Positions 11,218 to 55,006 of a stretch of 64,000 nt of DNA are shown in pieces. A model generated the notes under the pieces. That model was not told the DNA's origin. It worked only from the letters and a program-made list of their open reading frames with translations, and ran no database searches. Position 1 is the first letter of the stretch. Every line of letters starts with the position of its first letter. The position numbers were made by a program, and so were the translations under genes. This DNA comes from Phenylobacterium zucineum HLK1 (lineage in GTDB: Bacteria > Pseudomonadota > Alphaproteobacteria > Caulobacterales > Caulobacteraceae), in the NCBI RefSeq assembly GCF_000017265.1, contig NC_011144.1, forward strand, positions 1,652,001-1,716,000. Direction: 5' to 3'.

Positions 11218-11684
11218 GGCCGGATGGCGAAGACCGCCGCCACTTCCACCGCCGCCCCGAGGGGCAGGCTGCCGGCTCCGACGGCGGCGCGGGCATGCCG
11301 GCCCGCCTCCCCGAACACCTCGACCATCAGGTCCGAGGCGCCGTTGACCACCTGCGGATGGTCGGTGAACGCCGGGCCGGCGTTCACGAACCCGGTCAGC
11401 TGGACGCAGCGCACGACCCGGTCGAGGCGACCGCCGAGGGCCCCCCGCAGCTGCGCGATCACCGCAAGCCCGCACAGCCGCGCCGCCGCCTGCGCCGCCT
11501 CGGGGGTGAGGCCCTCGCCGACCTTGCCCGTGACGAGCCCTCCGGCGTCGCGCGGCAGCTGCCCGGACACCGTGGCGAGCCCGTCGTGCAGCACCACGGG
11601 GACATAGTTGGCGACAGGCGCCCCGGCCGGCGGCAGCTCGATGGCGAGGTCTTTCAAGCGGTCGTCGAAGGAAGCGGTGGTCAT
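11214..11684 (-). CDS. RidA/YjgF-family protein
   Basis: 156 aa, Rid-family imine/enamine deaminase-like fold. The text PVANYVPVVLHDGLATVSGQ, CVQLTGFVNAGPAFTDHPQV and the Arg in HARAAVGAGSLPLGAAVEV match the longer Rid branch. Family members hydrolyse reactive 2-aminoacrylate-type imines made by PLP enzymes, which suits the metC gene close by. It is 64 bases downstream of the TonB receptor on the same strand and may be co-transcribed with it. Confidence 0.85.
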   Translation of the reverse strand: MTTASFDDRLKDLAIELPPAGAPVANYVPVVLHDGLATVSGQLPRDAGGLVTGKVGEGLTPEAAQAAARLCGLAVIAQLRGALGGRLDRVVRCVQLTGFVNAGPAFTDHPQVVNGASDLMVEVFGEAGRHARAAVGAGSLPLGAAVEVAAVFAIRP

Positions 11685-40587: not shown

Positions 40588-40981
40588 ATGTCGCGCGCGC
40601 CCGAACACACTCGCCCAGACCTCTACAGCCGCGTCACCGCCCAAATCATCGAAGACCTGCAGCGGGGCGTCCGCCCCTGGACCAAGCCTTGGTCCGCCGA
40701 ACACCTGGCCGGACGCATCACCCGGCCGCTCCGACACTGCGGCCAGCCGTACAGCGGCATCAACGTCGTGCTGCTCTGGGCCGACGCGGTCGCCAAGGGC
40801 TTCTCGGCGCCCATCTGGATGACCTTCCGCCAGGCCTTGGAGCTCGGCGCCCACGTCCGCAAGGGCGAGCGCGGCTCCACCGTCGTCTACGCTAACCGGC
40901 TGAGGCGCACAGAGATCGGCGACGACGGCCGCGACGTGGAGCGCGAGATCCCGTTCCTGAAGGCCTACACCGTCTTCAACG
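40588..40981 (+). pseudogene. ardC: ardC-type antirestriction gene, 5' part (exon before group II intron)
   Basis: First 131 codons plus one base of an ArdC-like protein: N-terminal DNA-binding ArdC_N domain ([72 protein letters not shown]). At base 40981 the group II intron begins. Joining 40588-40981, 44814-45136 and 54815-55006 gives an uninterrupted 302-aa frame. ArdC proteins are single-strand-binding, zincin-like proteins that protect incoming DNA from restriction. Confidence 0.9.
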
Positions 40982-41614
40982 GTGCGCCGTAACGGCGGAA
41001 GTATTGGGAGTGTCACGATGAGTGAATGAGCTTGCTGGTTATGGCTCATGCCCGCCGAACTAACCTCGGTCAGCAATGACTGAAACTCCGAAAGGAGCGG
41101 GGGAAAGTAGCATGTTCGGAAAAGGCCCGAATCGCCAAAGTCGTTTGCGGCGCGGAGGGTCAGGGCAAGACGTGCATGGCGAAAGCTAGACTGCCTGAAC
41201 CCTAGTTTGCAGCGGCTAACGACCGGAGCGGTGTCGCAGGACGACTGACGCGGCATCTCGGATGGAATGAGGACAGGGCGTTGAGGTCCTCCAAATCCCG
41301 GCTCGCCGGGAGAACCAGCCTATCCGACGCATCCTTCATCGAAGGGGCAAGTGAACGAACGGGGCGCCTAAACACGTCGTATCTCCCGCTTCCGTAATTA
41401 CGGGATGCCCTGCAGCTGGCGTCGCCTCGGCGGCGGCCTGTATGGGCACGGAGCCGCCATATTAGCCAAACGCCCGGCGTAACGGCCGGGACAGCCGGTG
41501 CGAAAGCGCCGGATGGTCGCCGACATAAGTGCGGGGCGACCCGCGCGAAACTCCCAGCGATCAGGTGAAGGGCGGCAGCGACTGCGATCCAACGACTTCA
41601 GAGGAGGCGTGCTA

Positions 41615-42625
41615 ATGCTGCCGAATACCATCGAAAAGGCCGTTGGATCACTCCCGACCGTTGTCAGGTCGGGTCGGCGGGTCAATGGACTCTTCCGCCT
41701 AATGAAGGCCCCGCTCCTCTGGGAGATGGCCTATCAGAAGATCGCCCCGAACAAGGGGGCGATGACGCCGGGCGTCGATGGCGAAACCTTTGACGGCTTC
41801 TCGCCGGAAAAGGTGCGCGCGATCATCGACCGGCTGGCGGACGGGACCTATCGACCCTCACCGGTGCGTCGGGTTTACATCCCGAAAGCCAACGGCAAGA
41901 AACGGCCGCTTGGCGTACCGACCACGGAGGACCGTCTGGTCCAGGAAGTGGTCAGGACCCTTCTGGAGCAGATCTATGAGCCGCTGTTCTCGCAGCGCTC
42001 TCATGGGTTCAGGCCAGGGCGATCCTGCCACACCGCCTTGGAGCATATCCGGGCGGTCTGGACTGGGGTGAAGTGGCTGGTCGATGTCGATGTGGTCGGG
42101 TTTTTCGACAACATCGATCATGACGTTCTCATGGGTCTGCTGGAAAAGCGGATCACGGACCGGCGCTTCATCGCGCTGGTGCGTGGGATGCTCAAGTCGG
42201 GCTACGTCGAGAACTGGGTCTTCCACAAGACCTACAGCGGCACGCCTCAGGGTGGTGTCGTCTCCCCGATCCTGGCGAACATCTACCTCCACGAACTCGA
42301 CGAGTTCATGGAGGCGAAGGTCGCCAGCTTCACCCGGGGAGGCAAACGTGCGCCGTCGGTGGAAGGCCGGCGGATCATGAACCGCCTCACGCGCCTCCGT
42401 AAACAGGTGGATCAGCTTCGCGCCGACAGGGGCGAAGATGACCCGCAGATCACGTCCATGTTGGACGAGATCGGTCAGTTGAAGGCGGAACGCATGACCG
42501 TTCCGGCCACCGACGCGTTCGATCCGAATTACCGGCGGCTCCGCTACTGCCGCTACGCCGATGACTTCCTCATAGGCGTGGTCGGCAGCAAGGAAGAGGC
42601 CCGTCAGTTGATGGCCGAGGTCAGG
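41615..42625 (+). pseudogene. group II intron maturase/reverse transcriptase, N-terminal part
   Basis: 337 codons up to the IS. Strong RBS GAGGAGG before ATG 41615. RT domain with KRPLGVPTTEDRLVQEVVRT, FSQRSHGFRPGRSCHTALEH, WLVDVDVVGFFDNIDHDVLM, GTPQGGVVSPILANIYLHEL and the catalytic YADD in RYCRYADDFLIGV. The frame runs three codons into the IS and stops. Removing the IS and one CAGG copy gives a 638-aa protein. Confidence 0.9.
42622..42625 (+). repeat. IS target duplication, left copy
   Basis: CAGG at 42622-42625; the same four bases follow the right end at 43883-43886. Confidence 0.8.
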
Positions 42626-42654
42626 TGACCTGCCCCCCGCCGGTCCCTCGATCA

Positions 42655-43566
42655 TTATGAGAGCCCAGGGGGTTGGTAGCTGATCTCCAGCGCCGGCGGT
42701 AGCGGCCGGGCGGTGGAGCTGATCAAGTTGCGCAGCCGGCCGGCCGCGGGGTTCAGACGCACGGCTTCCGGGGTCAGTCCGCCGTGCGCCGAGTGCGGCC
42801 TGACGTGGTTGTAGTCGAGCCGCCAGCGCTCGATGACAGCCCGGGCCTCGGCGAGGTTGGCGAAGACCTCCTCGTTCAGGCACTCGTCGCGCAGCTTGCC
42901 GTTGAAGCTCTCGACGAAGCCGTTCTGCTGCGGCTTGCCGGGCGCGATGTAATGCCAGTCGACGCCGGTGCGGTTGGTCCATTCCAGCATGGCCCGGCTG
43001 GTCATCTCGGTCCCGTTGTCGCTAACGATGGTCGCCGGCCGGCCGCGCCGGGCGATCAGGGCGTCCAGCTCGCGGGCCATGCGATGGCCGCCGATCGAGG
43101 TGTCGACCACCAGCGCCAGCGCCTCGCGGGTGAAGTCGTCGACGATGCACAGGATCCGGAAGCGCCGGCCCCAGCTCAGCGTGTCGGCCACGAAGTCCAG
43201 GCTCCAGCGCTGGTTCGGCCCGTCCGGCAGCGCCATGGGCGCCCGCGTGCCGGTGGCGCGCTTGCGGCCGCGCCGCCTTCGCACCGCCAAGCCCTCCTCG
43301 CGGTACAGCCGGAAGAGCTTCTTCTTGTTCATGCTGACGCCTTCACGCTCGAGCAGGATGCCGAGCCGCCGGTAGCCGAAGCGGCGTCGCTCCGCCGCCA
43401 GGCCCCGCAGCCGGGCGCGTACCTCCGCATCGCCTGGCTGGGCCACGCGGCGCACTGTCTTCGGATCGACCTGGACCAGCCCGCAGGCGCGCCTCTGCGA
43501 GAAGCCGCGCTCCGCCATCAGGCGAAGCACGGCCTCCCGGCGCGCTGCAGGCCCGATCAGTTTTTT
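42655..43566 (-). CDS. IS3-family transposase OrfB (produced by -1 frameshift)
   Basis: About 303 residues after the slippery site. DDE integrase core: first Asp in [14 protein letters not shown], second in [16 protein letters not shown], Glu in [20 protein letters not shown]. An HTH-like lead-in ([20 protein letters not shown]) precedes it. No start codon of its own with an RBS; the expected product is OrfAB fused at AAAAAAC. Confidence 0.9.
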
Positions 43567-43850
43567 CCCAGCAGGTCCTTCAGCGCCGACACGTCGAGCA
43601 TGGACTCCGCCAAGAGCTTCTTCAGTCGCCGATTCTCGTCCTCCAGCGTCTTCAGCTTCTGGGCATCCGACACGTTCATGCCGCTGTACTTCGCCTTCCA
43701 CCGGTAGAAGGTCTGCTCGCTGATCCCATGCCGCCGGCAAACCTCCGCCGTCGGGCTCCCGGCCTCCTGCTCCCGCAGCACGCCGATGATCTGCGCCTCG
43801 TTGAACCTGCTCTTCTTCACGTCCGTCTCCTCAGGGTGACGGACTCTCAC
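43557..43850 (-). CDS. IS3-family transposase OrfA (HTH)
   Basis: 97 aa. HTH_Tnp_1 type: [40 protein letters not shown], then a leucine-zipper helix [20 protein letters not shown]. Ends at LLGKN with the stop three bases after the slippery run. Confidence 0.9.
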
Positions 43851-43886
43851 TCAAACCGAGGGATCAGGAAGGGGGCAGGTCACAGG

Positions 43887-44792
43887 ACATTCCTGGCCGA
43901 GCACCTGAAGCTGACGGTCTCCGACGAAAAGAGCGGCATCCACAAGGCTTCGGACGGCGCACGCTTCCTCGGCTACGAGGTCTGCACCTCCACCAATCAC
44001 AACCCGCATAGGGCGATATTCAAGGATCGCCCCACATTGCGGCGCGGCTTGGCGGATCGGCTGAAGCTTCGTGTGCCCAGGGACCGGGTGGTCGGCTTCG
44101 TGAACGGTAGGGGGTGGGGCGATTACGACGCCTTCCGCCCTCGCCAGCGTGCCGCCCTCACCTTGACCAGCGATGTGGAGATCGTCCTCGCGTTCAATGC
44201 GGAATGGAGGGGCTTCGCGAACTACTATGCGCTCGCCGATGATGTGAAACGGAAGCTCAACAAGGCCGGTTACATGGCCCTGATGAGCTGCCTGAAGACC
44301 ATCGCAGCGAAACATAGGTCATCGGTTCCGAAGGTCGCCGCCCGTATGCGTGTCGGGACGGACTTCTACGTCCGGTTCAAAGTCGGTGATGAAGCCCGAG
44401 CGATCAAACTCTGGCAGTTGAAAGACCTCCGACGCGATGTGCGGACCTGGGGCGGCCTCGATATGTCGCCTTCACCGCAGTTCGTGTTCAGCAGGACCGA
44501 GATGGTCGAACGCCTTAATGCTCGCCAGTGCGAGCGTTGCGGCGGCACCGATCAGCCCTGCGAGGTCCATCACGTCAGACGGATCGCTGAGATGGAATAC
44601 GCCGGGCTGCCCCGCTACATGCGGGCGGCGCGCCAGCGAAAGCGGGTAGTGCTGTGCAAGCCCTGCCACAGCGCCGTCCACGCCCATGAGCCGACCGACA
44701 AGCAGCGCATGGTAGCACGCAGTCGTGGAGAGCCGGATGCGCTGAAAGGTGCACGTCCGGTTCGGAGGGGGGCTGAGCCGCGTCCTCACTGA
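43887..44792 (+). pseudogene. group II intron maturase, C-terminal part (X and HNH domains)
   Basis: 302 codons including stop. Begins TFLAEHLKLTVSDEKSGIHK directly in frame with the N-terminal part. Maturase X-like segment (LRRGLADRLKLRVPRDRVVG, NYYALADDVKRKLNKAGYMA) and an HNH nuclease with Cys pairs (CERCGGTDQPCEVHHVRRIA, CKPCHSAVHAHEP). The stop (44790-44792) lies 28 bases beyond domain V, so the ORF reads through domain V RNA. Confidence 0.88.
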
Positions 44793-44813
44793 GGCGTCGC
44801 CAGCCTACCCTAC

Positions 44814-45136
44814 TCGAGCAGATCGAGGGTCTGCCCGGTCACTTCCATGCGCTCGCCGAACCACAGCTGCAGCCGCAGCAGCGGATCGCCCACGCCGAGG
44901 CCTTCTTCCAGGCCCTGGGCGCCGACATCCGCCACGGCGGGAACAGCGCCTACTACGCCGTGGGCCCCGACTACGTGCAGTGCCCGCCCTTCGAGTCCTT
45001 CGTCGACCCGGAGAGCTACTACGCCACCCTGGCGCACGAGTGCACCCACTGGACGCGCCATCCGAGCCGCCTCGACCGCGACTTCGGCCGCAAGCGCTGG
45101 GGCGATCCGGGCTATGCACGGGAAGAGCTGGTCGCC
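44814..45136 (+). pseudogene. ardC: ardC middle part (zincin region), between intron and recombinase element
   Basis: Continues the frame as QIEGLPGHFHALAEPQLQPQ, then FFQALGADIRHGGNSAYYAV, PPFESFVDPESYYATLAHEC and THWTRHPSRLDRD. HECTHW is the zinc-binding HExxH motif. It breaks after the codons for ELVA at GTCGCC, where the 9.67-kb element begins. Reading on into the element adds LSGQSAPTHTLH and a stop. Confidence 0.9.
45131..45136 (+). repeat. 6-bp direct repeat GTCGCC at left end of recombinase element
   Basis: Matches GTCGCC at 54809-54814. The original ardC has only one copy here, so this is the target or crossover sequence. Confidence 0.85.
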
Positions 45137-45150
45137 TTATCTGGACAGTC

Positions 45151-45323
45151 TGCGCCGACTCACACGCTGCATTGAGAGGCGGATGCAGGGCGCGGCGCAG
45201 GCGGGCTCCAGGCCGGCCGCAGCGCTCCCAAGAAGCTGGCGGCGGCCGGCCTGGAGAGCGCCGTGACCAGGCCGCGCCGGCGCCGATGCAGGCTCCCTGA
45301 GGGGGTCCGGGGGAGTTTCGCCT
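45151..45323 (+). other. left subterminal region of the recombinase element
   Basis: 173 bases from the left inverted end to the first recombinase. An ACACGCTG follows the end repeat here as it does at the right end (ACACGCTG on the complement), suggesting shared binding sites. No gene. Confidence 0.4.
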
Positions 45324-46724
45324 GTGGACGAGCTTGCCGCGTCTTCGACGATCACGGTGCAGGAGCGGCGACCGGTGGAAGGTCTCGACACGCACGTGCC
45401 GATGATCCTGCGTGACGGCGCGCTCTACGATCCCGATCTCGACCGCTTCTTCCTCGATCTGCCGCTGAGCGGGGTGCCCTCGCGCCATTCGCTGCGCGCC
45501 TATGCCTACGACGTGGCGGTATGGGTCCGCTTCCTCGCCGCTGCCTGCGGCAAGCACGTCTGGGCGGCCGGCCGCGAGGACGTCGCCGGGTTCCACCGCG
45601 CGCGACGGCGCGAGGACGCCGGCACCCGGATCTCAGCGGCCTCCTGGAACCGCGCCGTGGCCGCCCTGGAGAAGCTCTACCGCTGGGGCGAGGCCGAGGG
45701 CCTTGTCGCCCAGACGCCGTTCACCCATCGCGCCATCTGGCGTCGCGGACACGCCGGCGGCCGCGGCCGGATGACCGGCCGCAACGACGCCTATGAGCGG
45801 GCGGCGAAGCGCGCCGACGTCCGCTTCGCCACGCTCGAGGACTATCGCCTGTTCCGCGACGTGGGTCTGCGCGGCCTTACGCTGGACGGGGGTGAGCGGC
45901 CGGGCGCGCGCGACCGCAACGGCGCGCGCAACGCGCTCTTCGCCGAGCTGCTGGTCACGACCGGGCTGCGGCTCGAGGAGGCGTCCTCGCTGTTCGCTGC
46001 CGAGCTTGCCGGCCTGGCTCCCGCTGCGGCGGCCGATCGGCAGGTCTGGCTGGAGCTGCCGCAGGGCCTCACCAAGGGCGAGCGCGGCCGGCGCGTTCTC
46101 ATACCCCGCCGGTTTGTGCAGCAGCTGCTGCCCTATTTGGCGGTCGAGCGCGCCAGCGCCGTCACTAAGTTCCAGGCGCGATCCGGCTGGCGCGCCATCG
46201 AGCGGCCGATCTTCGCCCGCGCGATCGATCCGGGATCCCGCGTGCGGCTGCGCGACGGCGGATCGGTCTCGATGGACGCGCTGACGCCGGATGAGCGAGG
46301 TCGCCTCGTGCTCTGCGCCGAGGACGGCGCGCCGGCCGAGCCGGCGGCGCTGTGGCTGACCGAGGTCGGCCAGCCGGTGCGGCCTAACTCCTGGGAGGCC
46401 GTCTTCGCCCGCGCCTCGCGGCGCTGCGCCGAGGCCGGCAGGCCCATCCGGATCAGCCCACACCAGCTGCGCCACACCTTCGCGGTCCACATGCTCGCCA
46501 TGCTGATCCAGCACCGGCTCGCCGAGGCTTCGCCTTCGGCCGGCCCGATGGCCGGCTACCGCGAGCTGCTCGGCGATCCGCTGCAGCAGGTTCAGCGCCT
46601 GCTCGGCCACGCCAGCCTCGCCACCACCTACATCTATCTCGACCACATCGCCTCGCGCGCCGACACGGTCGACGCCGCCGTCGAGGAGCTGCTGGCGCTC
46701 CTGCCCGCACGGCCGAGGGCGTGA
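45324..46724 (+). CDS. tyrosine recombinase A of the trio
   Basis: 466 aa from GTG 45324. N-terminal SAM-like core-binding domain (FLDLPLSGVPSRHSLRAYAY, DVAVWVRFLAA) and catalytic domain: Arg in LLVTTGLRLEEASSLF, HQLRHTFAVHML (H-x-x-R), LLGHASLATTYIYLDH (GH and the nucleophile Tyr). First gene of three with 4-base GTGA overlaps, the hallmark of RIT operons. Likely makes one of the two strand exchanges at the 6-bp core. Confidence 0.9.
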   Translation: MDELAASSTITVQERRPVEGLDTHVPMILRDGALYDPDLDRFFLDLPLSGVPSRHSLRAYAYDVAVWVRFLAAACGKHVWAAGREDVAGFHRARRREDAGTRISAASWNRAVAALEKLYRWGEAEGLVAQTPFTHRAIWRRGHAGGRGRMTGRNDAYERAAKRADVRFATLEDYRLFRDVGLRGLTLDGGERPGARDRNGARNALFAELLVTTGLRLEEASSLFAAELAGLAPAAAADRQVWLELPQGLTKGERGRRVLIPRRFVQQLLPYLAVERASAVTKFQARSGWRAIERPIFARAIDPGSRVRLRDGGSVSMDALTPDERGRLVLCAEDGAPAEPAALWLTEVGQPVRPNSWEAVFARASRRCAEAGRPIRISPHQLRHTFAVHMLAMLIQHRLAEASPSAGPMAGYRELLGDPLQQVQRLLGHASLATTYIYLDHIASRADTVDAAVEELLALLPARPRA

Positions 46725-48499
46725 GCGGCAGACCACGCAGGGGGCGCCGCGTCGGCTTCACCGCGGCCGACGGCGCCCGATCCGACGAGCCTGGCGATCA
46801 GGTCGCCGGCCTGCGGTTCACCATCATCGCCCAGGATGGCGGCGCGGTCCTAGTGGACTACACCGCCTTTCGACCACGACGCCTGGCGCTCGCCTTCGCG
46901 CGGGCGCTGCGCCGTCTCGCGGGTTCGGGCGGCCCGCTCGGAGTCCGCACGACGGTCAAGGCCTACGCGGTCACGCTCCCGCGCTTCTTCCAGTATCTGG
47001 CCGCGACAGACGAGCCGGTCGCCGGTCCGGAGGAGCTGCGCGGCCGCCACGTCGACGCCTTCGAGGCGTGGCTGGCGGCGCAGGGGCTCTCGCGCGTCCA
47101 CCTGTTCACCGTCCTGGTGAAGGTGGTCTGCGCCTTGCGGCAGATCGCCGCCGACGCGCCGCAGGCCGTCGCGCCGGACCTGCGCGAGCGGCTGCGCTAC
47201 ATCAGCGCCCAGCCGTACGAGCGGCCCCAGCCGCGCGATACGCTGAGCCCGTTCGTGGCGCACCAGCTCCGCGACGCCGCCCGCGCGGACATCGTGAGCC
47301 TCGTGAGGCGGGTGCTCGCCGGGCCGCCGGCCGAGGCTGACCCGGGCCTGGGCAAGGTGCTCGCCGCGGCGCACGCCGTGATCGCCGCGCGCGGCGTGCT
47401 CACCCAGGAGGATCCGGAGTGGATGCGGCTCTACGGCGCGCGCTGGCGGCGCGGGTTGCAGAGCCCGCAGCTGAGCCACGACCTGCACGCCGCCCACCAT
47501 CTCACCGCCGCGGACGTGGCGCCGTGCCTGGTGCTGCTGTCGCTGGAGACGGGCCTGGAGATCGAGTGCTGCAAGGGGCTCGTCGTCGATTGCCTGCGCA
47601 ACGCGTCCGGCGGCACGGTAGAGATCGCCTATGTGAAGCGCCGCGCCCGCGGCGCCGAGCACAAGACCATCCGCGTGCGCGACGGCGGCTCCACCACGCC
47701 CGGCGGGCTCATCCGCCGCCTCGTCGAGCTCACCGCCGCGGCGCGGCGGCGCCATCCCAGCGACAGCCTCTGGGTCTACTACCGGTCCGGCGCGCTCACC
47801 GCCGGCGTCCGGCACCCCCGCGAGACGATCGACGCCTGGACCGCCCGCCACGGTATCGTCGACGACCAGGGCCGGCCGCTTCGGCTCGTCCTGTCCTCGC
47901 TGCGCAAGACCCACAAGGCGCTCTGGTACCTGAAGACCGAGGGCCGGATGGCTCGCTTCGCCGTCGGCCACACCGCCGAGGTGGCGGCACGGCACTACGC
48001 CGATATTCCCGCCCTGCGGCCGCTGCACGAGGCCACGGTGGCCGACGCCCTGGAGGAGGCGCTGGCGGGTCCGCGGCTGGTCGCGTTGGACGCGGCGGCG
48101 CTCGACGCCACCAGCGGCGCGCCTGATCCTTCGCCGCCCCCACATGATGCTGGCCCGTCGGCGCAGGACCTCTGGCTGGCGAGCTGCAACGGCTTCTACG
48201 CCAGCCCGTTCGGCGAGGCGGGGTCGCCATGCCCGACACCGTTCTGGGGCTGCCTCAAGTGCCGCAACGCAGTGATCACCGCGCGCAAGCTGCCGGCGAT
48301 CCTGGGCTTCCTCGCCTTCGTGGAGGCCGAGCGGGCGGGGCTGGCCGTCGGCGACTGGGCCGCCAAGTTCGGCGAGGTTCACGCCCGGATCACCCGCCAC
48401 ATCCTGCCGGCGTTCTCCGACGCCGTCGTGGAGCAGGCCCGCGCGGCGCTCACCGACCGACCACCTGTGGCCTACCTGCCGCCGGAAGCCCGCGGGTGA
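46721..48499 (+). CDS. tyrosine recombinase B of the trio
   Basis: 592 aa, GTG start overlapping recombinase A's stop. N-terminal core-binding part (FFQYLAATDEPVAGPEELRG) and a divergent catalytic domain: LLSLETGLEIECCKGLVVDC in place of the usual Arg block, SLRKTHKALWYLKTEGRMAR (R-K-T-H), VGHTAEVAARHYADIPAL with the Tyr. A C-terminal Cys-containing segment (CNGFYASPFGEAGSPCPTPF, CLKCRNAV) looks like a zinc-binding extension. Such middle recombinases are always odd in RIT operons. Confidence 0.85.
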   Translation: MSGRPRRGRRVGFTAADGARSDEPGDQVAGLRFTIIAQDGGAVLVDYTAFRPRRLALAFARALRRLAGSGGPLGVRTTVKAYAVTLPRFFQYLAATDEPVAGPEELRGRHVDAFEAWLAAQGLSRVHLFTVLVKVVCALRQIAADAPQAVAPDLRERLRYISAQPYERPQPRDTLSPFVAHQLRDAARADIVSLVRRVLAGPPAEADPGLGKVLAAAHAVIAARGVLTQEDPEWMRLYGARWRRGLQSPQLSHDLHAAHHLTAADVAPCLVLLSLETGLEIECCKGLVVDCLRNASGGTVEIAYVKRRARGAEHKTIRVRDGGSTTPGGLIRRLVELTAAARRRHPSDSLWVYYRSGALTAGVRHPRETIDAWTARHGIVDDQGRPLRLVLSSLRKTHKALWYLKTEGRMARFAVGHTAEVAARHYADIPALRPLHEATVADALEEALAGPRLVALDAAALDATSGAPDPSPPPHDAGPSAQDLWLASCNGFYASPFGEAGSPCPTPFWGCLKCRNAVITARKLPAILGFLAFVEAERAGLAVGDWAAKFGEVHARITRHILPAFSDAVVEQARAALTDRPPVAYLPPEARG

Positions 48500-50700
48500 C
48501 CGCGCGCCCATCCCTCCAGCCGGCCGAGGAGTTCGACACCCGGCCGGTCCTGATGACGGCGCCGCTCCGGGCGGGTTTCCAGCGCGCCGATCTCTCCCGT
48601 TACGGCGACTCCGTCTGGGACCTCTCGCCCGCGGTGTTCCGCGAGAACGCCCGGCGCTGCCACGTGACGGTCCGCTTCGATGGCGTCGGCGATCCGGCTA
48701 CGGCCGCCGCGCTTCGCGAGTACCTCCACACCCGGCTCAACGTCGCGCGGCCTGGCGGCCGCCCGGTGCTGCCGCCGGCCAGCGCGCGCGGCGCCTTCAA
48801 CCGCTGCCGCCGGTTCTTGGCGTTCGTCACCGCCGAGCTCGGGTGTTGCGATCCCGGCCGGGCCGACCAGGCGCTGGCGGACCGCTACGCCAAGGTTCTC
48901 CGGGACGCAGGGCTCAGGCCTACCGCCATCTCGCACCTGCTGGAGGTCGTGTTCGATCTCTTCGCCCTGCGCGATCGGCTGCCGACCGCGCGGCTCGCCT
49001 TCGAGCCCTGGCCCGGCCGCTCCCCTGCGCTGGTCGCCGGCGTCAGGGGCGGCCCCGCCGAGAACCGCACGCCGCGCATTCCCGAGCCGGTCATGGCGCC
49101 GCTGCTCGCCTGGTCGCTGCGCTACATCGACCTGTTCGCCGCCGACATCTTCGCCGCCCGGGCCGAGCTGACCGGGCTCGAGCGTCGGCGCGACGCGCTC
49201 CTGCGCCAGGATGCGCCCCTGGCCGGGCTGGAGCGACGCCGGCGCCGGCGCGAGCGCCTGGCGGCCTTTTTCGACCAGCGGCGCGCGGAGGGCCGCGGCG
49301 TGCCGATCTGGACGAGCGCCCACAACGGCATCTGGCGGCGCGATCCTGCGACGGGAGAGGTCACCCCGCCCATCAACGCCCACCTCCTGCACCTCCACGT
49401 CGGGATCGACGCGCAGGACCAGCCCGGCGACCACCTGCAGCTCGACGGCGGCGCGCCCGACCTGATCGCCGCCGCCGTCGCCGAGCTCGGGGTGGAGGTA
49501 GGCGGCCTGGATGCCGCCATCGCCGAGCTTCCCGGCGCGGGTCATCCATGGCGACCGCGCTTCGACGCCAAGACGCTGGCGCGGGAGGAGCGGATGCTGC
49601 AGGCCGCCTGCTACGTCGTCTGCGCCTATCTCACCGGCATGCGCGATTGCGAGGTCCAGGCCATGCGCTCGGGTTGCCTCTCGCTCACGCGCAGCGAGGA
49701 CGGCGTGATCCTTCGCCATCGCCTGCGCTCCACCGCTTACAAGGGCAAGCGGGCGATCGGCGAGCCCGCCGAGTGGGTCACCATCGCCCCGGTGGCCCGC
49801 GCCGTGGAGGTGCTGGCCCAGCTTTCCGCCGCCCCGGCGGCCGCCCGCGGCGTCGATACTCTGTGGCCGGTGCTGTCGCTGAAGACCGGGACCAAGGCCC
49901 ACGTCTCGGCCGAGATCGTGCGCCAGCTCAACGCCTTCCGCGATCACCTCGACGGCCTGTTCGGCAGCCCCGGTGAGCCGGTCATCCCGCGCGATCCGGA
50001 CGGCGCGCCCTGGCGCTTCACCACGCGGCAGTTCCGCCGCACCATCGCCTGGCACATCGCCAACCGCCCGTTCGGGACCGTGGCCGGCATGATCCAGTAC
50101 AAGCACGCCTCGGTCGCCGCCTTCGAGGGCTACGCCGGGTCCAGCCGCTCGGGGTTCCGCGCCGAGGTCGAGGCCCAGCGCCGCCTTGGCCAGCTCGACG
50201 ACATCCTGGATTATTTCGATCGGCGCCAGGGCGGCGCAACGCTTTCCGGCCCCGCCGCCGGCAAGGTCGCCCGCACGCTCGACGCCGCGGCCGAGGCGCT
50301 GGGGCCGTCGCCGGTGATACTCGCCGACCGCGGACGGCTCCGGGCCCTGCTGGCGAGCCCGGCGCGCAGCCTGCATCCCGGCGTCCTCGCCGACTGCTTC
50401 TTCGACCCGGCGACGGCGCTCTGCCTCATCGGCCGCTCCGGCGAGGCCTCCGGGCCGGCCATTCCGCTCTGCCAGCCGACCCGCTGTCCTAACGCCTGCA
50501 TCACGGCGCGCCACCGGCCGGCATGGTCGCGGGCCGCCGACGACGCGCGCGGTCTCCTGCGCGAGAAGCGCCTGTCGCCGGCGCAGCGCACCGTCCTGGC
50601 CGGCGAGCTGGCGCGGTTCACGGCCGTTCTGGACGGCATCGACGGCGCGCCTGGACCTAACCAGGCTTCGCCGGGGCCTCCGCGTAGAGCGCCAGGATGA
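48496..50700 (+). CDS. tyrosine recombinase C of the trio (large)
   Basis: 734 aa from GTG 48496, overlapping B's stop. Large N-terminal part, then the catalytic domain: AYLTGMRDCEVQAMRSGCLS (Arg), RFTTRQFRRTIAWHIANRPF (R-R-T/H), MIQYKHASVAAFEGYAGSSR (K-H and Tyr). C-terminal Cys motifs (CFFDPATALCLIG, CQPTRCPNACITARHRPAW) parallel those of B. Its last 44 bases overlap the convergent merR gene. Confidence 0.85.
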   Translation: MTARPSLQPAEEFDTRPVLMTAPLRAGFQRADLSRYGDSVWDLSPAVFRENARRCHVTVRFDGVGDPATAAALREYLHTRLNVARPGGRPVLPPASARGAFNRCRRFLAFVTAELGCCDPGRADQALADRYAKVLRDAGLRPTAISHLLEVVFDLFALRDRLPTARLAFEPWPGRSPALVAGVRGGPAENRTPRIPEPVMAPLLAWSLRYIDLFAADIFAARAELTGLERRRDALLRQDAPLAGLERRRRRRERLAAFFDQRRAEGRGVPIWTSAHNGIWRRDPATGEVTPPINAHLLHLHVGIDAQDQPGDHLQLDGGAPDLIAAAVAELGVEVGGLDAAIAELPGAGHPWRPRFDAKTLAREERMLQAACYVVCAYLTGMRDCEVQAMRSGCLSLTRSEDGVILRHRLRSTAYKGKRAIGEPAEWVTIAPVARAVEVLAQLSAAPAAARGVDTLWPVLSLKTGTKAHVSAEIVRQLNAFRDHLDGLFGSPGEPVIPRDPDGAPWRFTTRQFRRTIAWHIANRPFGTVAGMIQYKHASVAAFEGYAGSSRSGFRAEVEAQRRLGQLDDILDYFDRRQGGATLSGPAAGKVARTLDAAAEALGPSPVILADRGRLRALLASPARSLHPGVLADCFFDPATALCLIGRSGEASGPAIPLCQPTRCPNACITARHRPAWSRAADDARGLLREKRLSPAQRTVLAGELARFTAVLDGIDGAPGPNQASPGPPRRAPG

Positions 50701-51076
50701 GCGGACAGCCGGGGTCCAGCCCCGCGTCGCAGGCTCGGACGGAGTCGGCGAGCACCCGTTCCATCCGCCTGAGGTCGGCGATCCGCGCCCGCACGTCCTT
50801 CAGGTGCGACCCGGCGAGCTCACGCACCTCGGCGCAGGCGGACTGCCCGCCGGCGGCGAGCCCCAGGAGGGCGCGCACCTCGTCCAGCGTGAAGCCCAGC
50901 TCGCGGGCCCGGCGCACGAAGCCCAGCCGGCCCACGTCTTCTGCCCCATAGCTGCGGTAGCGGCCGCGTCGCGGCGGGGCGGGCAAGAGGCCGATCCGCT
51001 CGTAGTAGCGGATCGTCTCGATGTTGCAGCCGGTGCGGCGCGAGAGCTCGCCGATGGGTATCGCGGTGTCCGCCAT
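50657..51076 (-). CDS. merR: mercury-responsive MerR regulator
   Basis: 139 aa. MerR HTH (IGELSRRTGCNIETIRYYER, YRSYGAEDVGRLGFVRRARE) and the three Hg(II)-binding Cys of MerR: SACAEV, RACDAG and PGCPLI, with LAGSHLKDVRARIADLRRME between, as in the Tn501 protein. This pattern separates it from CueR. Divergent from the merT-like gene with the operator between. Represses or activates at the 19-bp-spacer promoter. Confidence 0.92.
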   Translation of the reverse strand: MADTAIPIGELSRRTGCNIETIRYYERIGLLPAPPRRGRYRSYGAEDVGRLGFVRRARELGFTLDEVRALLGLAAGGQSACAEVRELAGSHLKDVRARIADLRRMERVLADSVRACDAGLDPGCPLILALYAEAPAKPG

Positions 51077-51097
51077 GCAAAGCCTTCCGATTAGGGC

Positions 51098-51128
51098 TTG
51101 AGTCTGTAGTCGCTACAGATGGCATCGT
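51098..51128 (+). promoter_or_regulatory. MerR-type promoter/operator (PmerT)
   Basis: TTGAGT (51098-51103), 19-base spacer containing the dyad CTGTAGTCGCTACAG, then CATCGT (51123-51128). Lies between divergent merR and merT-like genes. Confidence 0.85.
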
Positions 51129-51156
51129 GGGCGGCATGGCGCCAGGAGACGACGGC

Positions 51157-51570
51157 ATGACGGCGAGCAGCGGGCCCCAGGTCCGACGAGAGGGACAGGG
51201 CGGCAAGCCCATCGAGGCCGGCCTGAGCTGGGCCGCCGTCACCGCCGCGGCGGGCGCGGTCTTCGCCTGGGCCGCGTGCTGCGTGCTGCCGATGTCGCTG
51301 GCGCTGGCCGGCCTTGGCCTCGGCGGCCTGAGCTGGTTCGCCGAGCAGCGCACCTGGATCACGCTCGCGGCGCTGGGCGCGACCGGCGCGGGCTGGCTCC
51401 TGGCCTGGCGCCGCGCCCGGATGTGCCGGACGGACGGCGCCTGCGCCCCGCCGTCGCGGCTCGGGACCGGGCTGCTGGCCGCGGCCACGCTGCTTGCGCT
51501 GCTCGCGCTCGTCTGGCAGCCGCTCGTCGAGCCCTGGGCCCTGGCCCTGATCCGGAGCGCCCGCGGATGA
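51157..51570 (+). CDS. merT: MerT-like mercuric ion transporter
   Basis: 137 aa with three membrane helices. First helix carries the vicinal Cys pair in FAWAACCVLPMSLALAGL; a cytoplasmic loop has MCRTDGACAPP, the second Cys pair; then a third helix. Transports Hg(II) inward for reduction. ATG 51157 is preceded by AGGAG; an in-frame GTG at 51127 sits on the -10 element. No MerP gene is present between it and the next gene. Confidence 0.88.
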   Translation: MTASSGPQVRREGQGGKPIEAGLSWAAVTAAAGAVFAWAACCVLPMSLALAGLGLGGLSWFAEQRTWITLAALGATGAGWLLAWRRARMCRTDGACAPPSRLGTGLLAAATLLALLALVWQPLVEPWALALIRSARG

Positions 51571-51791
51571 GTGACGTGCAGATCGAGCTTCGCTCCACGC
51601 TCACCTGCCCGCACTGCGGCCAGCGGACGACGGAGACCATGCCGACCGACGCCTGCCAGTATTTCTACGACTGCCGGGGCTGCGGCGTGGTGCTCAAGCC
51701 CAAGCCGGGAGACTGCTGCGTCTACTGCTCCTATGGCGACGTGCCCTGTCCGCCGATCCAGGAGGGCGGCAGCGAGGCGTGCTGCGCGTGA
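51567..51791 (+). CDS. GDCCVxC-domain small protein of mer operon
   Basis: 74 aa. Zinc-ribbon-like start (LTCPHCGQRTTETMPTDAC, YFYDCRGCGVVLKPKP) then GDCCVYCSYGDVPCPPIQEG and C-terminal CC. This is the GDCCVxC family seen in mercury operons, sometimes with Sec in place of a Cys; here all positions are Cys. Function unknown, likely Hg(II) binding or relay. Start overlaps the merT stop by ATGA. Confidence 0.85.
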   Translation: MSDVQIELRSTLTCPHCGQRTTETMPTDACQYFYDCRGCGVVLKPKPGDCCVYCSYGDVPCPPIQEGGSEACCA

Positions 51792-51802
51792 CGATGGCCC
51801 TG

Positions 51803-51833
51803 TTGACTCTGTAGCCGCTACAGACGCTACGCC
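51803..51833 (+). promoter_or_regulatory. second MerR-type promoter/operator
   Basis: TTGACT (51803-51808), 19-base spacer with CTGTAGCCGCTACAG, then TACGCC. The dyad differs from the first operator by one central base. It would drive the membrane-protein and MerA-like genes separately from merT. Confidence 0.8.
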
Positions 51834-51853
51834 AGGATTGGAGGTAGTCGATC

Positions 51854-52240
51854 ATGGCCTCGCATGACCAAGCCGCACCAAGGTCGCGGGACTTCCTGGC
51901 CCGGCCGTTGAGCGCGATCCTCTGGTGGGGGCTGCCGCTCGCGGCGGGCTGGTCGGCGGACTTCCTGCCGATCACCCAGACGGCCACGACGCTCGTCTGG
52001 ACCGCCGCGCTCGCCTGGATGGGCGCGGGCTGCACCCTCAACGCCCGCCGCTGCCATCGGCTGCACTGCTACGTCTCGGCTCCGGTGCTGTTCCTGGGCG
52101 CGATCGGCACGCTGGCGGCCGCCCTGGGGTTCGCGCCGTTCGGCCCGCATACCGCCAGCTACGTGATCCACACGACCTTGGTGCTCGCACTCTCCACGTT
52201 CCTGGTCGAGCCGGTCTGGGGCAAGTACCGGTCCCGCTGA
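51854..52240 (+). CDS. four-helix membrane protein of mer operon, unknown family
   Basis: 128 aa. Hydrophobic segments ILWWGLPLAAGWSADFL, ATTLVWTAALAWMGAG, YVSAPVLFLGAIGTLAAALG and YVIHTTLVLALSTFLV. Cys/His cluster GCTLNARRCHRLHCY on the loop after helix two could bind Hg(II). GGAGG before the ATG. I do not recognise a named Mer transporter (not MerC, E or F); a mercury transport role is inferred from the operon and its own MerR box. Confidence 0.7.
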   Translation: MASHDQAAPRSRDFLARPLSAILWWGLPLAAGWSADFLPITQTATTLVWTAALAWMGAGCTLNARRCHRLHCYVSAPVLFLGAIGTLAAALGFAPFGPHTASYVIHTTLVLALSTFLVEPVWGKYRSR

Positions 52241-52274
52241 TCGTTCGTCGGCGTGACCGTCGCAGGAGGACGCC

Positions 52275-53621
52275 ATGGCCGGCTACGACCTGATCGTCAT
52301 CGGCAGCGGCACCGCCGCCCAGGTTGCGGTCGGCCGTGTCCGCGCGGCCGGCTGGTCCGTCGCGGTGATCGACCATCGCCCGTTCGGCGGGACCTGCGCG
52401 CTGCGCGGCTGCGATCCGAAGAAGATGCTGGTCAGCGGCGAGGAGGCCCTCGACGCCGCCGCGCGCATGGCCGGACACGGCGTCGAGGGCGCCCTGGCGA
52501 TCGACTGGCCGGGCCTGATGGCGTTCAAGCGGACGTTCACCGATCCGATCCCGGCCAAGCAGGAGGCCCGCTACGCCGCGCTGGGCGTCGACGCTTTCCA
52601 TGGGACCGCCCGCTTCGTGGGTCCCGATAGGGTCGCGGTTGACGGCCACACCCTGCAGGCCCGCCACATCCTGATCGCCAGCGGCGCGCGCCCGGTCCCG
52701 CTCGGCATCCCGGGCGAGGACCTGGTCGTCACGAGCGACGCGTTCATGGAGATCGAGGCCCTCCCGCGCCGCATCGTGCTGATCGGCGGCGGCTACGTCG
52801 CCGCGGAGTTCTCGCACCTGGTCGCGCGCGCCGGCGCCGAGGTCACCATCCTGCAACGGGCTGCGCGGCTCTTGCCGCACTTCGATCCCGACGCAGTGGG
52901 CTGGCTCATGCCGCGGTTCCGGGAGCTCCGCATCGCCGTCGAGACCGGCGCGACGGTCACCCGCGTCGAGCAGTCGCACGACGGCTTGCGCGTCCACGCC
53001 TCCCGGCGTGACGGGCCGCACCTCAGCGTCGCAGCCGACCTGGTGGTCCACGCGGCTGGGCGCGGTCCCGACCTCGACGCCCTGGACCTGGCGGCCGGCG
53101 ACGTCGCCGCGCGGGACGGCCGTCTGCAGCTGAACGACCACCTGCAGAGCGTCTCCAACCCACGGGTCTATGCCGCCGGCGACGCGGCCGGCGTGGGGCC
53201 GCCGCTGACGCCGGTCTCCAGCCACGACGCCAAGGTGGTCGCCGCCAACCTGCTCGACGGCCCCTCGCACCGGCCCGACTATCGCGGCGTCCCGAGCGTC
53301 GCCTTCACCGTGCCGGCCATCGCCGCCGTCGGGCTGTCGGAGGACGAGGCGCATCGCCAGGGGCTCAGGTTCCGGGTCAACGCCGCTTCCACGCCGGACT
53401 GGTTCACCGCGCGGCGCCTGGCCGAGCGGGTCTACGGCCACAAGGTGCTCATCGAGGAGGCCACCGACCGGATCCTCGGCGCGCACCTGGTGGGGCCGCA
53501 CGCCGAGGAGGTGATCAACCTCTTCGGCCTCGCCATCCGCCACGGGCTCACCGCGGCCGACCTGCGATCCACCATGTTCGCCTATCCGACCGGCGCATCG
53601 GACGTGAGCTCCATGCTCTGA
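52275..53621 (+). CDS. MerA-like FAD/NAD(P) disulfide oxidoreductase
   Basis: 448 aa. FAD-binding (DLIVIGSGTAAQVAVGRVRA), redox disulfide GGTCALRGCDPKKML, NAD(P)-binding (IVLIGGGYVAAEFSHLVARA), second FAD motif RVYAAGDAAG and dimerisation domain. Unlike classical mercuric reductase it lacks the N-terminal HMA domain and the C-terminal vicinal Cys pair, ending ...YPTGASDVSSML; the usual His-Pro base is also absent at FAYPTGA. The active-site text is closer to the glutathione-reductase-like branch. Its mer context suggests Hg(II) reduction or thiol reduction. Confidence 0.82.
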   Translation: MAGYDLIVIGSGTAAQVAVGRVRAAGWSVAVIDHRPFGGTCALRGCDPKKMLVSGEEALDAAARMAGHGVEGALAIDWPGLMAFKRTFTDPIPAKQEARYAALGVDAFHGTARFVGPDRVAVDGHTLQARHILIASGARPVPLGIPGEDLVVTSDAFMEIEALPRRIVLIGGGYVAAEFSHLVARAGAEVTILQRAARLLPHFDPDAVGWLMPRFRELRIAVETGATVTRVEQSHDGLRVHASRRDGPHLSVAADLVVHAAGRGPDLDALDLAAGDVAARDGRLQLNDHLQSVSNPRVYAAGDAAGVGPPLTPVSSHDAKVVAANLLDGPSHRPDYRGVPSVAFTVPAIAAVGLSEDEAHRQGLRFRVNAASTPDWFTARRLAERVYGHKVLIEEATDRILGAHLVGPHAEEVINLFGLAIRHGLTAADLRSTMFAYPTGASDVSSML

Positions 53622-53823
53622 GACGAAGGTTCGGCGGCAGGCCCGGCAGCGCCGGGCCACCCCGGCGATCGGCGGAGCAGGCGCTGGCCGCGCCCGGCCT
53701 GCAACGGCGCGCTTCCGCGCCGTCCTCCGCTCCGCTGCGGCCTTCGGTGCAGGCCGGTCCCGCCCATCGCTGAAGGCGCTCCGCCGCCGGGGATGGGCCT
53801 CGGCGGGACCCGGAGTTCCGATC
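53622..53823. other. GC-rich leader before second ardC
   Basis: 202 bases with no gene; similar low-complexity style to the leaders before DUF736 and parB. Confidence 0.35.
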
Positions 53824-54720
53824 ATGCCTTCTCATCGCGCAGACATCTACGCTCGCATCACCGGCGAGATCGTCGCCGCCATCGAAGCCGGCGCCGGCGA
53901 GTTCAGGATGCCGTGGCATCACGACGGCGCCGCGACCAGCCGACCCGTCAACGTCGCCTCGTCCCGGCCGTACCGGGGCGTGAACATCCTGGCCTTATGG
54001 ATCGCCGCGCGCGAGGCCGGCTATCCGTCCGGCCTCTGGGGCACCTACCGCCAGTGGCTGGCGCTGGGCGCGCAGGTTCGCAAGGGCGAGCACGCCACCT
54101 CGATCGTGCTCTGGAAGACCCTGCGCCCCGCAGGCGGCGACGAAGGCGACGAGCCCGAGGCGCCAGGCGGCCGCACGCGGATGTTCGCCCGCGGCTACGC
54201 GGTGTTCAACCTGGCCCAGGTCGACGGCTATGCGCCCGCGGCGTCGCCGCAGCTTCCTGAGTCCGAGCGCCTGGCCCACGCGGAAGCGTTCTGGTCCCGC
54301 CTCGGCATCGTCACCGTCTACGGCGGCTCGGAGGCCTACTACCTGCCGTCGAAGGACACGGTGTTCATGCCGCCGTTCTCGGCCTTCCACGACGCCGGCG
54401 CGCATTACAGCACCCTCTATCACGAGGGGGTTCACGCGACGGCTGCACGCCATCGCTGCAACCGTGATCTCTCCGGCCGCTTCGGCTCCGAGGCTTACGC
54501 CATGGAGGAGGTGGTCGCGGACCTGGGTTCGGCGCTGATCCTGGCCGACCTCGGCATCGCGGTCCACCCGCGGCCGGACCACGCCGCCTACATCGCCTCC
54601 TGGCTGAAGGTGCTGAAGAACGACACCTCGGCGATCTTCACGGCCGCCTCCAAGGCCCAGGCCGCCGCCGACTGGATGCACGCCCAGCAGCCTGCGGCGC
54701 AGGCGGACGTCGCCGCATGA
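53824..54720 (+). CDS. ardC: ArdC-type antirestriction protein, intact second copy
   Basis: 298 aa. ArdC_N part (ADIYARITGEIVAAIEAGAG, YRGVNILALWIAAREAGY, YRQWLALGAQVRKGEHATSI, MFARGYAVFNLAQVDGY) and a zincin C-terminal part with HEGVH in STLYHEGVHATAARHRC and the third ligand region AYAMEEVVADLGSA. Homologous over its length to the broken 302-aa copy outside the element but clearly diverged. Carried inside the element that disrupts the first copy, so it may replace the lost function. Confidence 0.9.
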   Translation: MPSHRADIYARITGEIVAAIEAGAGEFRMPWHHDGAATSRPVNVASSRPYRGVNILALWIAAREAGYPSGLWGTYRQWLALGAQVRKGEHATSIVLWKTLRPAGGDEGDEPEAPGGRTRMFARGYAVFNLAQVDGYAPAASPQLPESERLAHAEAFWSRLGIVTVYGGSEAYYLPSKDTVFMPPFSAFHDAGAHYSTLYHEGVHATAARHRCNRDLSGRFGSEAYAMEEVVADLGSALILADLGIAVHPRPDHAAYIASWLKVLKNDTSAIFTAASKAQAAADWMHAQQPAAQADVAA

Positions 54721-54762
54721 CAGGTCGTCTCGCGGCGGGCGCGTCCCCGTGTCCGCCGCCCC

Positions 54763-54799
54763 GTGTTGATGGAGTGTTGATGGCCCAGCGTGTTGACTG
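54763..54799 (+). repeat. three iterated GTGTTGA repeats at the right end
   Basis: GTGTTGATGG at 54763-54772 and 54774-54783, and GTGTTGACTG at 54790-54799, the last running into the inverted end. Probable recombinase arm-binding sites; unproven. Confidence 0.55.
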
Positions 54800-54808
54800 T
54801 CAGGATAA

Positions 54809-54814
54809 GTCGCC
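54809..54814 (+). repeat. 6-bp direct repeat GTCGCC at right end of recombinase element
   Basis: Second copy of the flanking hexamer; the ardC frame resumes at 54815. Confidence 0.85.
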
Positions 54815-55006
54815 GAACTGGGCGCAGCCTTCCTCTGCGCCGACTTGGGCCTGGAGTTGCAGCCCCGGGAGGACCACGCCGCCTATATCGACAGCTGGCT
54901 GAGCGTGCTGCAGGGCGACAAGCGGTTCATCTTCACGGCCGCCGCCTACGCCCAGCGCGCCGCCGACTTCCTGCACGGTCGTCAGCCGGCGAGCCTCGCC
55001 GCTTGA
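54815..55006 (+). pseudogene. ardC: ardC 3' part, after the recombinase element
   Basis: 63 codons plus stop: ELGAAFLCADLGLELQPRED, AAYIDSWLSVLQGDKRFIFT, AAAYAQRAADFLHGRQPASL. These align with the C-terminus of the intact copy (VVADLGSALILADLGI, YIASWLKVLKNDTSAIFT, AAADWMHAQQPAAQ). In frame with 40588-40981 and 44814-45136 once the insertions are removed. Confidence 0.92.

Follow-up and report, generated by a model that had tools for sequence, protein, structure and literature searches.

The element and the gene that it interrupts

A 64,000-nucleotide stretch of the Phenylobacterium zucineum HLK1 genome (NC_011144.1, positions 1,652,001 to 1,716,000; hereafter the window) contains a mobile element of 9,672 bp, located at 45137-54808 between two copies of the hexamer GTCGCC. 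The element has imperfect 14-bp inverted ends, three overlapping genes for recombinase-type proteins, here called A, B, and C, a large cargo, and an antirestriction gene, ardC, and it is inserted within a second ardC gene, referred to as the host ardC (Table 1). An earlier sequence-only reading had described this discrete element, with the position of its inverted arms about a 6-bp core, the abutting hexamers, and the internal ardC, and its description is confirmed in the window; the interrupted host ardC had not been noted there. A search with the end pattern TTATCNNGACAGTC returned only the two end arms in the window (none expected from 100 shuffles) and the same two across the whole 4.38-Mb genome, in which the recombinase trio is also single-copy.

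The host ardC is cut at the codons EEL-VA|E. Its two halves, ...GYAREELVA and VAELGAAFLCADLGL..., rejoin in frame over one GTCGCC (EELVA/ELGAAFL), and an intact ardC from the same genus (L105) aligns exactly to 45136 and resumes from 54809, with identities to the host ardC of 92-93% in the end segments and 84% in the middle. The genome has three PF18818 matches, which are the ardC of the element and the two halves of the broken host gene. The host ardC is also interrupted by a group II intron outside the element, and the reverse transcriptase gene of this intron is itself interrupted by an IS3-type insertion (42655-43850). Likewise, plasmid pNL1 (L011) has a reverse transcriptase gene and a trio element within one ardC.

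Sequence conservation of the three recombinase-type proteins was examined in the 59 intact trios of the family described below. The R-H-R-H-Y residues of A are invariant (59/59), as are R, RR, KH, and Y of C. In B, the first catalytic Arg is replaced by Glu in 59/59 proteins, with R, H, and Y being retained. B gave no match to Pfam or PHROG, and its predicted structure is of moderate quality (pLDDT 70, pTM 0.44); the Foldseek matches of this model with E below 0.05 are tyrosine recombinases only, including Tn1549 Int and Cre. From these residues, A and C look catalytically competent, and B, without the first catalytic arginine, is probably structural in its role.

The nearest trio proteins outside the family are those of four-gene elements on Aminobacter pSR2 (L101) and S. 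yanoikuyae pF1 (L103), with identities of 45/37% for A, 39/33% for B, and 45/30% for C, followed by the GInt-like elements of P. aeruginosa plasmids. Protein comparison of A, B, and C with GInt-like counterparts gave E values of 1e-10 to 1e-18, where the GInt/SE label of these counterparts (L099 and L100 on P. aeruginosa plasmids, and the four-gene mer element L104) was assigned from gene layout and not from a name. In a tree of C proteins, that of the window is on its own long branch, with a best identity of 67%. Elements with identical C proteins were found across different bacterial families, implying recent transfer.

Table 1. Positions of the element, its genes, and the surrounding host ardC in the window.
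Feature	Position	Strand	Basis
Host ardC, first part (ArdC-N domain)	40588..40981	+	PF08401 E=5e-42; L105 alignment
Group II intron in host ardC, outside the element	40982..44813	+	Rfam RF00029 at 44728-44813; exact boundaries from L105; reverse transcriptase and IS3 open reading frames
Host ardC, second part (...HECTHW...EELVA), up to the insertion point	44814..45136	+	PF18818 1.6e-30; L105 alignment
Left core hexamer GTCGCC, probably the target's own	45131..45136	+	Sequence; polarity as deduced for two other targets from their empty sites
Left end arm TTATCTGGACAGTC	45137..45150	+	Pattern search; same end in relatives
Recombinase A, 466 amino acids (aa), full catalytic set	45324..46724	+	PF00589, PF02899
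Protein B, recombinase fold, 592 aa, Glu in place of catalytic Arg I	46721..48499	+	Foldseek; likeness to GInt-like B
Large recombinase C, 734 aa	48496..50700	+	Invariant residues; GInt-like C similarity, E 1e-10 to 1e-12
MerR-type regulator	50657..51076	-	PF13411, PF09278; best NCBIfam MerR 122.9 bits, cut-off 150.85
Operator-like dyad CTGTAG-TCG-CTACAG beside TTGAGT box	51098..51124	+	Sequence
Small membrane protein with Cys pair, MerT-like by reading only	51127..51570	+	No Pfam/NCBIfam match
GDCCVxC-domain protein	51567..51791	+	NF041374 E=3.5e-31
Second operator-like dyad CTGTAG-CCG-CTACAG beside TTGACT box	51803..51829	+	Sequence
Small hydrophobic protein	51854..52240	+	No Pfam/NCBIfam family match
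MerA-like flavin adenine dinucleotide (FAD) oxidoreductase, lacking both an HMA domain and a Cys pair at the C-terminus	52275..53621	+	TIGR02053 295.7 bits, cut-off 454.45
ardC carried by the element, 298 aa, EEVVADL at the site codons	53824..54720	+	PF08401, PF18818
Right end arm TTATCCTGACAGTC	54795..54808	-	Pattern search
Right core hexamer GTCGCC, presumably brought in from the preceding donor site	54809..54814	+	Family rule; identical to the left hexamer here, so uninformative
Host ardC, last part	54809..55006	+	PF18818 3.1e-15; L105 alignment

Target site and core hexamers in relatives

Searches of plasmids and genomes gave 66 elements with both ends. Since the similarity searches started from a few close queries and some targets or lineages are represented by several insertions, the counts given here are not independent. 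The trio is intact in 59 of the 66 elements. Flanks could be read on both sides in 50, and all 50 are inserted at the same site and in the same orientation, in agreement with the predictable target and crossover of the sequence-only reading. The target DNA follows GARGARNTN-NNNGCN|GAR (the final GAR mostly), which nearly always corresponds to the ardC zincin codons EE(L/I)xA|E. In 49 of the 50 insertions the target is an ardC-type zincin gene; HExxH lies just upstream in 40 of these, a RIT-type (recombinase in trio) end lies at the motif in seven, and the remaining two begin too near a contig end. The exception, L010 on pTi-SAKURA, is an element without ardC, inserted at the same DNA site (EELKA|ELR) of a small unrelated open reading frame. 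This insertion indicates that the DNA site, not ArdC itself, is probably recognised. L010 (5569-14011) has two candidate right ends, at 11616 and 14011, which suggest a nested or composite structure.

The target was also examined with an unbiased left-end pattern in 398 Sphingomonadaceae genomes, in which 27 sites were found in 11 genomes, all with GARGARNTN-NNNGCN, and the control gave no match. Viral contigs gave three matches, of which two are ardC sites; the third, L127, lies outside ardC, has no right end in the DNA examined, and may be a chance match. Furthermore, in L001, L004, L032, L039, L054, L061, and L065 the HExxH codons of the same ardC genes adjoin RIT-type ends, recognisable from the palindrome TTATGCCGATATCGGCATAA and located approximately 31 codons upstream of the element's site, and a RIT-sized recombinase trio lies upstream in L001 and L004. 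At least three kinds of mobile DNA appear to use ardC as a landing pad.

The left and right hexamers are identical in only seven of the 50 insertions and different in the other 43. The comparison with relatives that the sequence-only reading had proposed thus gave the same ends repeatedly and mostly unequal hexamers, and the hexamer is not a target duplication, as had been supposed; judged by these insertions, the equal hexamers of the window are a coincidence and not a family rule. The polarity of the hexamers was deduced from empty targets, namely uninterrupted genes on other plasmids that are identical at all unmasked bases, for two targets. The uninterrupted target of L002, L004, and L005 reads GTCGCC at the core, and the right hexamers of these three insertions are GTGGCC, CGGGCC, and GTCGCC, respectively. 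The uninterrupted target of L003 and L083 reads GTGGCT, and here the right hexamers are GTCGCC and GTGGCG, respectively. In 5/5 insertions, including 4/4 informative cases, the left hexamer is that of the empty core and hence belongs to the target.

In genomes with several copies, 15 of 19 right hexamers recur as the left hexamer of a different copy of that genome (shuffled mean 8.3, p about 1e-4), which makes chains of donor and daughter copies readable. A three-step chain is found in Sphingobium sp. 15-1, where the left/right hexamers are GTAGCG/GTAGCC in L082, GTGGCG/GTAGCG in L081, and GTGGCT/GTGGCG in L083. The plasmid copy of Tardibacter chloracetimidivorans (left/right GTCGCC/CGGGCC) has a rare right hexamer, CGGGCC, which is found on the left of another copy in that genome. 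The same-genus genome G510 also fits the chain pattern, with one pair of ATCGCC (left) and ATTGCC (right) and another of GTCGCC (left) and ATCGCC (right); its assembly is without the element body and the pairing was made from flank matches, whereas other whole genomes were paired by coordinates.

Some loci show further rearrangement. L035 and L061 combine a left flank from the ardC of L002/L004/L005 with a right flank from a different ardC, and copies of the element may recombine with each other to give such chimeric targets. Draft contigs exactly one element long (L025, L034, L044, L058, and L093) are a sign of several copies with different flanks. These contigs were considered as circles and rejected, since they begin and end at the element ends, like collapsed multi-copy repeats.

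Cargo and the element-borne ardC

The mercury genes named in the sequence-only reading stood in part. A MerR-type regulator and a MerA-like oxidoreductase are present, but both score below the curated cut-offs, so that the operon is not a canonical mer operon. The MerA-like protein, of uncertain substrate, has no cysteines at its C-terminus, where known mercuric reductases carry a Cys pair; a role of the cargo in mercury is nevertheless likely. The small membrane protein, the GDCCVxC-domain protein, and the small hydrophobic protein also belong to the cargo. Given the two near-identical CTGTAG-N3-CTACAG dyads beside TTGA(G/C)T boxes, two cargo promoters may be under the control of one MerR-type regulator.

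The combination of cargo and ardC, which had been regarded as unusual, is usual in the family, as 59 of the 66 elements carry their own ardC. The rest of the cargo varies, and in relatives it includes ars genes and mer genes; the mer-like genes are replaceable cargo. Of the seven elements without ardC, one has a cation transporter, one has an ATPase-like gene, and L030 has nothing besides the trio and 246 bp. The element-borne ardC matches the target consensus at its site in only 20 of 58 cases, whereas 45 of the 50 targets and 13 of the 17 free genes do so. These site sequences are suggestive of self-immunity through a recoded ardC, which is left as a hypothesis because the common element-borne version EEICAEL (16/58) does match the consensus.

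Transposition route and known systems

On the basis of the target site, orientation, core polarity, and coexisting donor and daughter copies in the relatives, the element is probably a site-specific transposon of the wider SE/GInt/Tn554 kind, with three recombinase-fold proteins acting together, and we give this reading a probability of about 0.7. A, B, and C would act together on the two imperfect inverted 14-bp arms and the 6-bp core. As the comparison of relatives shows, insertion takes place in one orientation and leaves the hexamer of the target at the left end, and the left-flank hexamer of the previous site arrives at the right. By analogy with SEs and Tn552-II, a top-strand exchange would join the two ends about the left hexamer, which serves as spacer, the resulting circle would be replicated in a copy-out manner, and integration would place the spacer of the circle at the new right end. 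Insertion breaks the host ardC, and the ardC of the element probably makes up for the lost anti-restriction function when the plasmid is transferred. Rescue of a broken target has been suggested for Tn552-II, which has a target-like gene inside the element (PMC12486829), and the same reading fits ardC here. We also considered a more specific view, in which a distinct copy-out family with three recombinase-fold proteins and no fourth parasitises the ardC of conjugative plasmids and replaces it with its own divergent ardC, which may serve a single-stranded transposition step; such a view is unlikely.

Several observations weigh against the proposed route. None of the 66 elements yielded a fourth gene of the GinD, Srap, or TnpC kind when five fourth-gene proteins of related elements were used as queries, and the fourth protein is essential in GInts and SEs. 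The polarity derived from empty sites comes from four informative insertions in two targets, and the window copy, having equal hexamers, is uninformative on this point. GTCGCC is more common on the left than on the right (22 versus 6 of 50), which repeated targets explain only partly. In addition, no circular joint was found in 16 genomes, a viral contig collection, or the loci gathered by then.

The absence of the fourth gene bears on the idea that the element is a plain GInt or SE whose fourth gene was lost or has escaped recognition, with ardC as chance cargo. Such an origin would agree with the match of A, B, and C each to the GInt-like proteins of L099, L100, and L104, and with the order of A, Arg-less B, and C, which is that of the SE genes intA-tfp-intB (PMC10214605). 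All four genes are essential in GInts (PMC5385486), however, and ardC in 59 of 66 elements is too regular for chance cargo; the target and the hosts differ as well, and this explanation is doubtful. The regularity of ardC could instead mean that ArdC is a working part of transposition in place of the fourth protein, for instance by holding single-stranded DNA, as it is the sole conserved passenger, often lies right after gene C where relatives have the fourth gene, and has an N-terminal domain annotated as single-stranded DNA-binding in relatives. L030 and six other elements without ardC are nevertheless inserted at the same kind of site, and in Tn552-II, where tnpABC is complete, the target-like gene is an addition for which rescue was proposed (PMC12486829), making a working role of ArdC rather improbable.

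The unequal hexamers invite another explanation. A 6-bp core between inverted arms would also be expected of Tn916-like coupling sequences, and so would differing flanking hexamers. A cut-and-paste site-specific element of the Tn916 or integrative and conjugative element (ICE) type, with double-strand excision, a heteroduplex spacer, and either hexamer retained at random, would account for both features, and empty sites were found in three of seven tested GInt strains (PMC5385486). Random retention is difficult to reconcile with a left hexamer that is the target's in all informative cases, with right hexamers matching the left hexamers of other copies, and with several generations coexisting within one genome, and we consider cut-and-paste movement unlikely. 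The membership proposed in the sequence-only reading, that of a RIT element with an unusually large cargo, has in its favour the three overlapping recombinase genes, the short inverted ends, and the presence of RITs in the same ardC genes of several relatives. The proteins of 466, 592, and 734 aa contrast with those of about 315-410 aa in RITs, B is without the catalytic Arg I, and the RIT ends in these genes carry a different palindrome, TTATGCCGATATCGGCATAA, at their own upstream position. Moreover, in comparison with a true RIT trio (L001, 4747-7891), A matched RitB at E=0.001 and RitC at 0.05, which is the background level among recombinases and far poorer than the GInt-like matches. It is therefore very improbable that the element is a RIT.

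The family offers many naturally tagged insertions, in which the right hexamer names the donor, and finished genomes thereby reveal the direction and ancestry of transposition. For Tn554, GInts, and RITs the transposition route is described as unresolved, and SEs have been reported from Gammaproteobacteria only (PMC10214605). Copies with unequal hexamers would make the question of strand bias accessible to simple polymerase chain reaction (PCR). The element destroys an anti-restriction gene of plasmids and usually supplies another, and mercury- and arsenic-type cargo has been moved between alphaproteobacterial families.

The family shares with RITs the three overlapping tyrosine-recombinase genes and the occurrence in ardC genes, but differs in insertion point and sequence relationship; RIT proteins are all catalytic and RIT inverted repeats are 34 bp in length, unlike the imperfect 14-bp arms here (PMC3414803, PMC10214605). 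GInts are similar in having an operon of three recombinase-type genes, variable cargo including mercury genes, site-specific insertion, and an inferred 6-nucleotide staggered exchange, in addition to the protein similarity of GInt-like loci (PMC5385486). They differ in the essential ginD, in their targets, which are ssb and ABC transporter genes, and in direct repeats of 10-17 nucleotides, whereas only the mostly unequal 6-bp core is present here. The Tn554 family, especially Tn552-II (PMC12486829), likewise brings the donor att to the right end, uses an ordinary and a large recombinase, and combines a target-like gene (tgl) within the element with resistance cargo. Its tnpABC, in contrast, includes TnpC and no B protein, it resides in Staphylococcus, the Tn552-II att is 7 bp, and the target gene is another one; no TnpC-like gene was found in the 66 elements, as judged by the related fourth-gene queries and not by named Tn554 proteins. 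L101 and L103, which have the nearest trio proteins and, in L101, a merBA cargo, differ in a fourth gene of 122-124 aa and in having no ardC beside the trio.

Strand-biased circularizing integrative elements (SEs) such as SE-6283 and SE-6945 (PMC10214605, PMC9345347) resemble the family in gene order, with an ordinary recombinase first, a recombinase-fold protein deficient in Arg second, and a large recombinase third, as well as in imperfect inverted ends (13-19 bp in SEs), a 6-bp spacer, and coexisting copies; the SE 'fingerprint/footprint' pattern, with the target hexamer on the left and that of the donor on the right, is also found here. SEs have srap as a fourth gene, for which no counterpart was found with the related queries, and gammaproteobacterial hosts, while the family has alphaproteobacterial hosts, an ardC target, and an ardC of its own. 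No paper on the family, or on ardC as a target of such elements, was found in the open-licence literature. The family is not filed under SE or GInt because the defining gene of both was not found, though it works like SE or Tn554. Collectively, set apart from SE, GInt, and Tn554 by their descriptions and not by named proteins, these elements apparently form a new, unnamed family of a known kind.

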